Source: Acidobacteriota bacterium
GTDB taxonomy: Bacteria > Acidobacteriota > Thermoanaerobaculia > Gp7-AA8 > JAHWKK01
DNA: 64,000 nt
Reading direction: 5' to 3'
Assembly (NCBI GenBank): GCA_019347945.1
Contig: JAHWKK010000002.1
Span: 62,001 to 126,000, forward strand
In this document: positions 24,386 to 27,186 of the stretch, in pieces
Layout: each line of letters opens with the position of its first letter
Position numbering within the stretch: the first letter of the stretch is position 1
The notes under the pieces: model-generated
Told to the model about the DNA's origin: nothing
Database searches by the model: none
What the model saw: only the letters and a program-made list of their open reading frames with translations
Position numbers and translations under genes: made by a program

Positions 24386-24600
24386 AACCGAATCGGCAGG
24401 TCATTACGAAAGTGTTAACTCCGAGACCGCGGTGCACGTCCGTCACGAACGGCCGTGGACCGGGACCTCGAGGCGGGTTCCAAAAGCAGACCGTGAGTGA
24501 AGTCGACGTAGTCCACGAGCGCATGATACAGCGCCAAAATGACAGAGATCGACTGCCGACATCGATCGAGCGGGCTGACACCACACCAGGAGGCTTGGAC

Positions 24601-26319
<1,719 letters not shown>

Positions 26320-26342
26320 GATCAAAACGACACGGAAAGGCG

Positions 26343-26371
26343 TTGCATTAAACGAAACGAAATTTTATACT
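26343..26371 (+). promoter_or_regulatory. Near-consensus sigma-70 promoter after rpoD
   Basis: TTGCAT and TATACT are separated by exactly 17 bp, starting 24 bp after the rpoD stop. The predicted start is near 26378. No protein gene follows before the terminator at 26669-26694, so it most likely drives the structured RNA. Confidence 0.75.
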
Positions 26372-26377
26372 GCTCGG

Positions 26378-26694
26378 CGGGACAACAGGCGGAACGAAAT
26401 GCGCCACTCCCCGGTTTAGCAGAACGACACTTCGGTGTCCGATGTTCTTTGCCAGAACGAAAAGCTCCCGCCCCTCCCCGCCACTCCGGGGTGAGTTGGG
26501 GCGGTCGATCCGGTCCATGGTGCGGCGGTGTGGGCCATCGCGCTCTCGAAGGCGATGGTGCTTGTCATGGGTCCGCCGGAAATTCAAGGGGAGGAGGTAC
26601 TTGCAGGTACATGGTTTCTAATAAACGTCATATGGGGGATGGTAGCTAGCCACCCCCACCCCGAAGTAAAAAGGGCGCCGAAAGGCGCCCTTTT
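26378..26694 (+). ncRNA. Candidate structured non-coding RNA, about 317 nt
   Basis: The region runs from a strong promoter to a strong terminator and has no convincing gene. Hairpins: 26421-26448 (AGAAC/GTTCT around GACAC-TTCG-GTGTC); 26468-26504 (CCGCCCC/GGGGCGG around CCCCG/CGGGG); 26523-26578 (CGGCGG/CCGCCG with inner GCCATCGC/GCGATGGT); 26633-26658 (TGGGGG/CCCCCA). It does not show the conserved sequences of tmRNA, RNase P RNA or SRP RNA. A 6S-like or other regulatory role is possible but I cannot identify a class. A 12-codon frame MVSNKRHMGDGS at 26611 behind GGGGAGGAGG could be a leader peptide. Confidence 0.55.
26669..26694 (+). terminator. Rho-independent terminator of the candidate RNA
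   Basis: GGGCGCC-GAAA-GGCGCCC at 26673-26690 with AAAA before and TTTT after. The tetraloop and U-run are near ideal. It lies 8 bases before tRNA-Leu, so the tRNA may have its own or read-through transcription. Confidence 0.9.
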
Positions 26695-26701
26695 GATTTC
26701 T

Positions 26702-26792
26702 ACCCCGGTGGCGAAACTGGTAGACGCACGAGACTTAAAATCTCGAGCCGGTTACTTCCGGCGTGCCGGTTCGAATCCGGCCCGGGGTACCA
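26702..26792 (+). tRNA. tRNA-Leu (TAA)
   Basis: 91 bases, type II with a long variable arm (AGCCGGTTACTTCCGGCGT region). Acceptor ACCCCGG pairs with CCGGGGT; anticodon stem CGAGA/TCTCG holds CTTAAAA with TAA; T arm GCCGGTTCGAATCCGGC; CCA encoded. The repeat patch begins at once after its 3' end. Confidence 0.97.
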
Positions 26793-27184
26793 GGAAGCAG
26801 GAGCCAGGAATCAGGAGCCAGGATCCAGGATCCAGAAGCCAGTATCCGTTGCGCTGACCTTGTCCCTGAGTGATGGTGGCTGGCGGTCCCTGAGTCACCG
26901 CATGTCGCCGAGGATCGGAGCGGAGACTGGCGGATGAGACGTTCGGAAGGCGTCGTGTGGCTTCACGATCTCCCCGGGATCCTTCGTCGCTGACGCTCCT
27001 CACAGAATGATGGCACGCCGACGCCATGGCTACTGCTGCGAAGTTCTTGAATGCTGAGATCCTGATCCCTGGATCCTGGATCCTGACTCCTGGATCCTGA
27101 TTCCTGGATCCTGACTCCTGGATCCTGATTCCTGGATCCTGACTCCTGTATCCTGACTCCTGGATCCTGGATCCTGGATCCTGC
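26793..27184. repeat. Inverted and tandem CAGGATCCAGG-type repeat patch
   Basis: At 26793-26842 about five imperfect copies of a 10-bp unit read CAGGATCCAG or CAGGAGCCAG. At 27056-27184 about thirteen copies read the opposite way (CTGGATCCTG, CTGACTCCTG, CTGATTCCTG). The two arms are mutual reverse complements over a 200-bp core. The core, near 26960-27015, has GATCCTTCGTCGCTGACGC, akin to the dispersed element at 47.1 kb in reverse. No gene is evident in this 394-bp gap; predicted frames here are spurious. Confidence 0.8.
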
Positions 27185-27186
27185 TT

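Follow-up and report, generated by a model that had tools for sequence, protein, structure and literature searches.

Small RNAs with an anti-Shine-Dalgarno (anti-SD) tract, a CCUCC-type sequence placed in a hairpin, occur in alphaproteobacteria. Several described systems share single features with the RNA gene that we analyse here: the CcsR or cuckoo RNAs of alphaproteobacteria (PMC10253847), the dual-function bacterial sRNAs SgrS/SgrT and VcdRP, which encode small proteins (PMC4021124, PMC8672173), the boxA of suhB, an element outside rRNA that blocks an SD only 6 nt away (PMC5725501), and candidate structured RNA motifs from screens of intergenic regions, some of which contain short ORFs (PMC6429828, PMC2864571).

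The window, i.e. the whole stretch of 64,000 nucleotides of an Acidobacteriota bacterium that was analysed, contains a unit of about 317 nt from promoter to terminator, without an ordinary gene, between rpoD and tRNA-Leu(UAA). Like SgrS/SgrT and VcdRP it would be a structured RNA transcribed on its own, from a separate promoter to a separate terminator, and with a short ORF, but its ORF of 12-16 codons is located at the very 3' end, after a conserved pseudoknot, a boxB-boxA leader precedes it and it has no known mRNA targets, the comparison at the sequence level being the Rfam scan alone. With the CcsR RNAs it shares the CCUCC-type tract in a hairpin, whereas in the present RNA, which has a pseudoknotted core, the tract forms one arm of hairpin P1 and faces an internal SD and ORF. 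As in suhB, an rRNA-type boxA is found in the leader of a non-ribosomal transcript, but about 140 nt separate it from the SD downstream, and the structured core comes after it. The screen motifs with short ORFs were likewise found by conservation and covariation, and the present RNA differs from them in having no Rfam family, in its occurrence in one order and in its rrn-type leader. 6S RNA (RF00013) is a small structured RNA of a similar size class, but its fold is another one and the genome has its own 6S.

To judge from sequence comparison, the region is a real gene for a structured RNA that had not been listed before and that occurs in one acidobacterial order. Its parts and its neighbours in the window are as follows.

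24412-26319, + strand: rpoD, primary sigma factor, upstream neighbour (Pfam Sigma70 r1.1, r1.2, r2, r3, r4)
26343-26371, + strand: putative promoter TTGCAT-N17-TATACT (from the sequence; elements at the same place in relatives)
26426-26439, + strand: boxB-like hairpin GACAC-TTCG-GTGTC, directly before boxA (stem sequence varies and pairing is kept in most relatives)
26443-26451, + strand: boxA-like TGTTCTTTG (TC[AT]TTGA or a near variant in 16/16 copies)
26468-26504, + strand: hairpin P1, 26468-26474 with 26498-26504 and 26476-26479 with 26488-26491 (99-100% paired; two-sided changes)
26481-26533, + strand: pseudoknot PK1, P1 loop 26481-26485 with 26529-26533 (95% paired)
26510-26579, + strand: P2 (26510-26521 with 26564-26579) capped by P3 (26534-26539 with 26554-26559) (P2 100%, P3 92% paired)
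26588-26598, + strand: Shine-Dalgarno sequence GGGGAGGAGGT (near-invariant in 16/16; complementary to the P1 5' arm CCUCCCC)
26611-26649, + strand: micro-ORF encoding MVSNKRHMGDGS and a stop (ATG in 16/16, stop at the homologous place)
26634-26662, + strand: P4, GGGG with CCCC around the stop codon (97% paired, no covariation)
26669-26694, + strand: predicted intrinsic terminator, 11-bp stem with GAAA loop (from the sequence; stem in 16/16 copies)
26702-26792, + strand: tRNA-Leu(UAA), downstream neighbour and a separate gene (ARAGORN, Rfam)

A DNA search of 101 relatives identified 15 full homologues, all of the same order and with 70-76% identity, besides a few terminator-only or short chance matches. 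The matches in L018 and L021 were terminator-only look-alikes, and those in L019 and L020 were short, received no support from the covariance model and were judged to be chance. A pattern scan of named genomes yielded 14 copies, all in Acidobacteriota, several of them labelled Thermoanaerobaculia or Gp7. With a covariance model of the core, 16 of the 19 genomes of the order gave one copy each at E below 3e-30, and, with stricter filters, no copy was found elsewhere in the class (149 class genomes searched in all) and no further one in a sample of 297 genomes of the phylum. A laxer model search of the three order genomes without a copy and of 15 class genomes reached a best E of 0.15; its matches, mostly partial P2 hairpins at this value or worse, were taken as chance. 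The viral contigs searched held no copy, and in other genomes of the class the region downstream of rpoD is occupied by ordinary tRNAs or unrelated genes, with the core absent. The RNA family therefore appears to be restricted to one order (Thermoanaerobaculia / Gp7 Acidobacteriota).

The 16 copies were aligned from their letters without the use of structure, and the fold that was tested on this alignment consisted of P1, P2/P3, P4, the terminator and a pseudoknot in which the P1 loop pairs with the bulge that precedes P3. In this fold 98.0% of the cells are paired (95.6% in shuffles), two-sided changes occur in 11 pairs (4.2 in shuffles) and the covariation score is 0.179 (0.129 in shuffles, with 0/500 reaching the observed value), while slid controls pair at 42-51%; these covariation figures are indicative, since the 16 sequences are related and the shuffles overstate the significance. 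The bulk of the support comes from P2/P3, in which 8 pairs show two-sided changes, followed by P1 with two such pairs (U-A to C-G and C-G to U-A) and PK1 with one (C-G to U-A, in two sequences), next to G-U variants; the last pair of PK1 is U-U in the window copy. The unpaired nucleotides CGAU before P2 and AAAUU after P2 are invariant. A 5' UGCAAUAAA hairpin in relatives reaches a pairing count of 29/56. The default structure of RNAalifold favours a state in which the SD is occluded, while the per-pair counts favour P1. The original prediction of a stand-alone structured RNA is strongly supported by the 15 homologues together with the compensatory changes across relatives.

The window sequence alone would not settle the matter, because its promoter is no strong match to the consensus and single-sequence folding of the region gives a z-score of -1.8, which is only mildly unusual for its composition. 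The -35 element TTGCAT (26343-26348) agrees with TTGACA at 3/6 positions, the -10 element is TATACT (26366-26371), and a scan for consensus promoters did not list the window promoter; relatives have TTGCNATT-N16/17-TATCAT at the same place. The "strong promoter" of the original prediction does start 24 bp past the rpoD stop codon (26317-26319), but "strong" was overstated from the sequence of the window. Transcription would be expected to start near 26378, and the terminator, with the stem AAAAGGGCGCC-GAAA-GGCGCCCTTTT, ends the region about 317 nt after the likely start, as had been claimed; in most relatives the transcript would measure about 350-400 nt. The same AAAAAGGGCGCC-GGCGCCCTTT terminator stem is present at unrelated genes of relatives (L018, L021), and a near-identical terminator seems to be widely used in the class. 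Past the tRNA-Leu, positions 26793-27185 contain degenerate repeats of CAGGATCCAGGAATCAGGAGC and, inverted, CTGGATCCTGACTCCTGGATCCTG; similar simple repeats (GAATTCTGAATTC, GGCTGGAAAGCTAGAA) are located downstream of rpoD or of the RNA in the relatives L014 and L091.

Directly ahead of the core lies, in most copies, a hairpin with a variable stem, followed by a TTCTTTGA-type motif. The 16S leaders of two relatives contain the same hairpin with GGTTCTTTGA, also given as the hairpin followed by GGTTCTTTGACAACTGAATAG, which means that a boxA like that of rrn operons is present in the leader of the RNA. We infer that the hairpin and the motif are an rRNA-type boxB-boxA element, which may function in antitermination, and this leader gives a loose link to growth and ribosomes that was not part of the original prediction. 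Upstream of 16S, the two relatives L060 (900-1500) and L061 contain several more boxA-like motifs (GGTCTTTGA, GGATCTTTGG) on the far side of the last promoter, which suggests that rrn promoters are arranged in tandem and that every one of them has a separate boxA.

In relatives with the RNA and rpoD on one contig, the RNA is located downstream on the same strand at a distance of about 0.1-24 kb (about 0.14 kb in the window copy), so that its closeness to rpoD is loose synteny. With distances of up to about 24 kb, a functional tie to dnaG-rpoD, which the position in the window had suggested, is unsupported. The RNA lies within 1.5 kb of tRNA-Leu(UAA) in several relatives, and a divergent cupredoxin-like gene (named by appearance) and a convergent small zinc-ribbon-like gene are frequent but not universal neighbours, whose places are occupied by rpoD and the tRNA in the window copy. 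In L004, L006, L010, L012, L014 and L017 the convergent gene near the RNA encodes a zinc-ribbon-like protein with CxxCGxxFPxTR[SA]TRKYCTxRC[KR]TNACL. A conserved neighbour as the target of the RNA was rejected, since the neighbours vary and the window copy has others, and because no downstream gene is constant, the RNA is not the leader of a downstream gene.

The near-invariant GGGGGAGGAGGTAC follows P2, and the 3' end of the 16S rRNA of a relative is GGATCACCTCCTTT. In all 16 copies the micro-ORF comprises 12-16 codons and ends with TAG or TAA at a homologous place, shortly ahead of the terminator; most relatives have the type MDCSSKPEGASS followed by the stop. Its ATG is located 10-12 nt after AGGAGGT, a spacing longer than usual. 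Up to the stop, indels come in multiples of 3 nt, a restriction that is absent just after it, which points to a reading frame that is kept, although the peptide sequence need not be the selected target: a codon-column shuffle test (12.5% synonymous vs 22% in the null, p = 0.76; BLOSUM p = 0.34) gave no support for amino-acid selection on the micropeptide, and the peptide MDC(S/P)(S/N)(K/T)PEG of most relatives is diverged in the window and in L003. The strong SD seems to drive a peptide of 12-16 residues. The statement of the original prediction that there is no credible protein holds for ordinary proteins (Pfam), but it overlooks this conserved ORF, which together with the boxB-boxA leader and the invariant SD makes three conserved parts that the prediction lacked. 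At the level of sequence, then, the comparison documents conservation, a fold and retention of the ORF in this RNA family.

Since the P1 5' arm (CUCCUCCC) can pair either within P1 or with the SD, we propose that the RNA acts as a switch of translation. Transcription would begin at a sigma-70-type promoter that belongs to the RNA and would run through the boxB-boxA leader and the structured core, consisting of P1, P2/P3 and the loop-bulge pseudoknot, up to the strong terminator. When P1 and the pseudoknot are in place, the SD would be free and the micro-ORF translated; when the CUCCUCCC arm pairs with the SD, translation would be off. The balance could be tipped by a protein, a ligand or the ribosome supply, and the output could be the micropeptide or, in view of the weak conservation of its sequence, perhaps the act of translation itself, which would free or hide the CUCCUCCC tract. 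The helix between the SD and CUCCUCCC is paired in 98.6% of the cells in the 16 sequences, with no covariation and with two C-A mismatches, of which the window copy has one; against a switch, complementarity between a conserved SD and a C-rich arm would be expected in any case. In energy models of the RNA only up to the SD, the SD-occluded state is predicted to beat P1 plus P2 in 15/16 copies, and at full length the two states are predicted to differ by no more than a few kcal/mol in roughly half of the copies; across all copies the modelled full-length differences span -10 to +10 kcal/mol, the pseudoknot not being counted, with the window copy near balance (-0.7). These energies would fit a bistable RNA but do not prove one. 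The fold is well supported by covariation, and the mechanism is a proposal that could about equally well be right or wrong. The best explanation as a whole, an RNA of an order-restricted family with its own promoter, rRNA-type antitermination and an SD-gated micro-ORF, we likewise consider an even bet.

Alternatively, the RNA could be a trans-acting sRNA whose CUCCUCCC tract pairs with the SDs of other mRNAs, the internal SD and ORF serving as a cover for the tract or as a second function. The stand-alone promoter and terminator, the lack of a constant downstream gene, the near invariance of CUCCUCCC and the existence of anti-SD-tract sRNAs in alphaproteobacteria would suit such a role, but the tract lies within P1, whose compensatory changes favour the helix in cis, and simple anti-SD pairing accounts neither for P2 and PK1 nor for CGAU and AAAUU, which are unpaired and invariant. 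We regard this as an unlikely, though serious, alternative. An orphan riboswitch-like or protein-bound leader that solely controls a functional micropeptide appears rather doubtful: the compact pseudoknotted fold, the invariant unpaired nucleotides beside the SD and the peptide type shared by most relatives speak for it, but the divergence of the peptide in the window and L003 and the negative codon test speak against it, and no known ligand class matches in the Rfam scan. As a more speculative possibility, which we hold to be quite improbable, the RNA might be a stand-alone ribosome sensor with rRNA-like transcription through boxB-boxA, in which CUCCUCCC and the ribosomal anti-SD would compete for one very strong SD and translation of a throw-away micro-ORF would decide if the tract can act on other mRNAs.

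The diverged 6S RNA of the original prediction, to which the length of the RNA and its closeness to rpoD had pointed, was rejected as the identity because the genome has a separate genuine 6S (79.5 bits), as well as a tmRNA (RF00023, 186 bits, on another contig), elsewhere; the 6S covariance model gave no match in 26310-26800 even at E up to 10, and P1, P2/P3 and the pseudoknot, with an SD and an ORF, are unlike the 6S rod with its large central bubble, so that we give this reading practically no chance. In an Rfam 15 scan of the whole window the tRNAs alone reached the gathering cut-off and the RNA region was without a family; sub-threshold matches (psbJ 3'UTR, Atu_C8, several Salmonella sRNAs) were all on the terminator or the tRNA. 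ARAGORN found no tmRNA, with its tRNA-like domain and tag ORF, in the window, and with the tmRNA on another contig this identity is ruled out. Chance hairpins in GC-rich intergenic DNA, for which the modest folding z-score would speak, or an unrecognised protein gene are already refuted and of negligible probability, given 70-76% identity across genera with covariation on the one hand and, on the other, ORFs without a Pfam match and single-base indels inside the core, which leave no overlapping or longer protein frame.

The locus adds an RNA family that had not been listed before and for which the comparative evidence is strong; its carriers are soil bacteria known here from metagenome-assembled genomes alone. 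In the literature consulted, no case was found that combines an rRNA-type antitermination leader with a pseudoknotted core and with a conserved micro-ORF that has nothing downstream of it. If the proposed switch is real, the locus would exemplify a complete regulator made of RNA that has either a 12-residue peptide or translation as such for its direct output.
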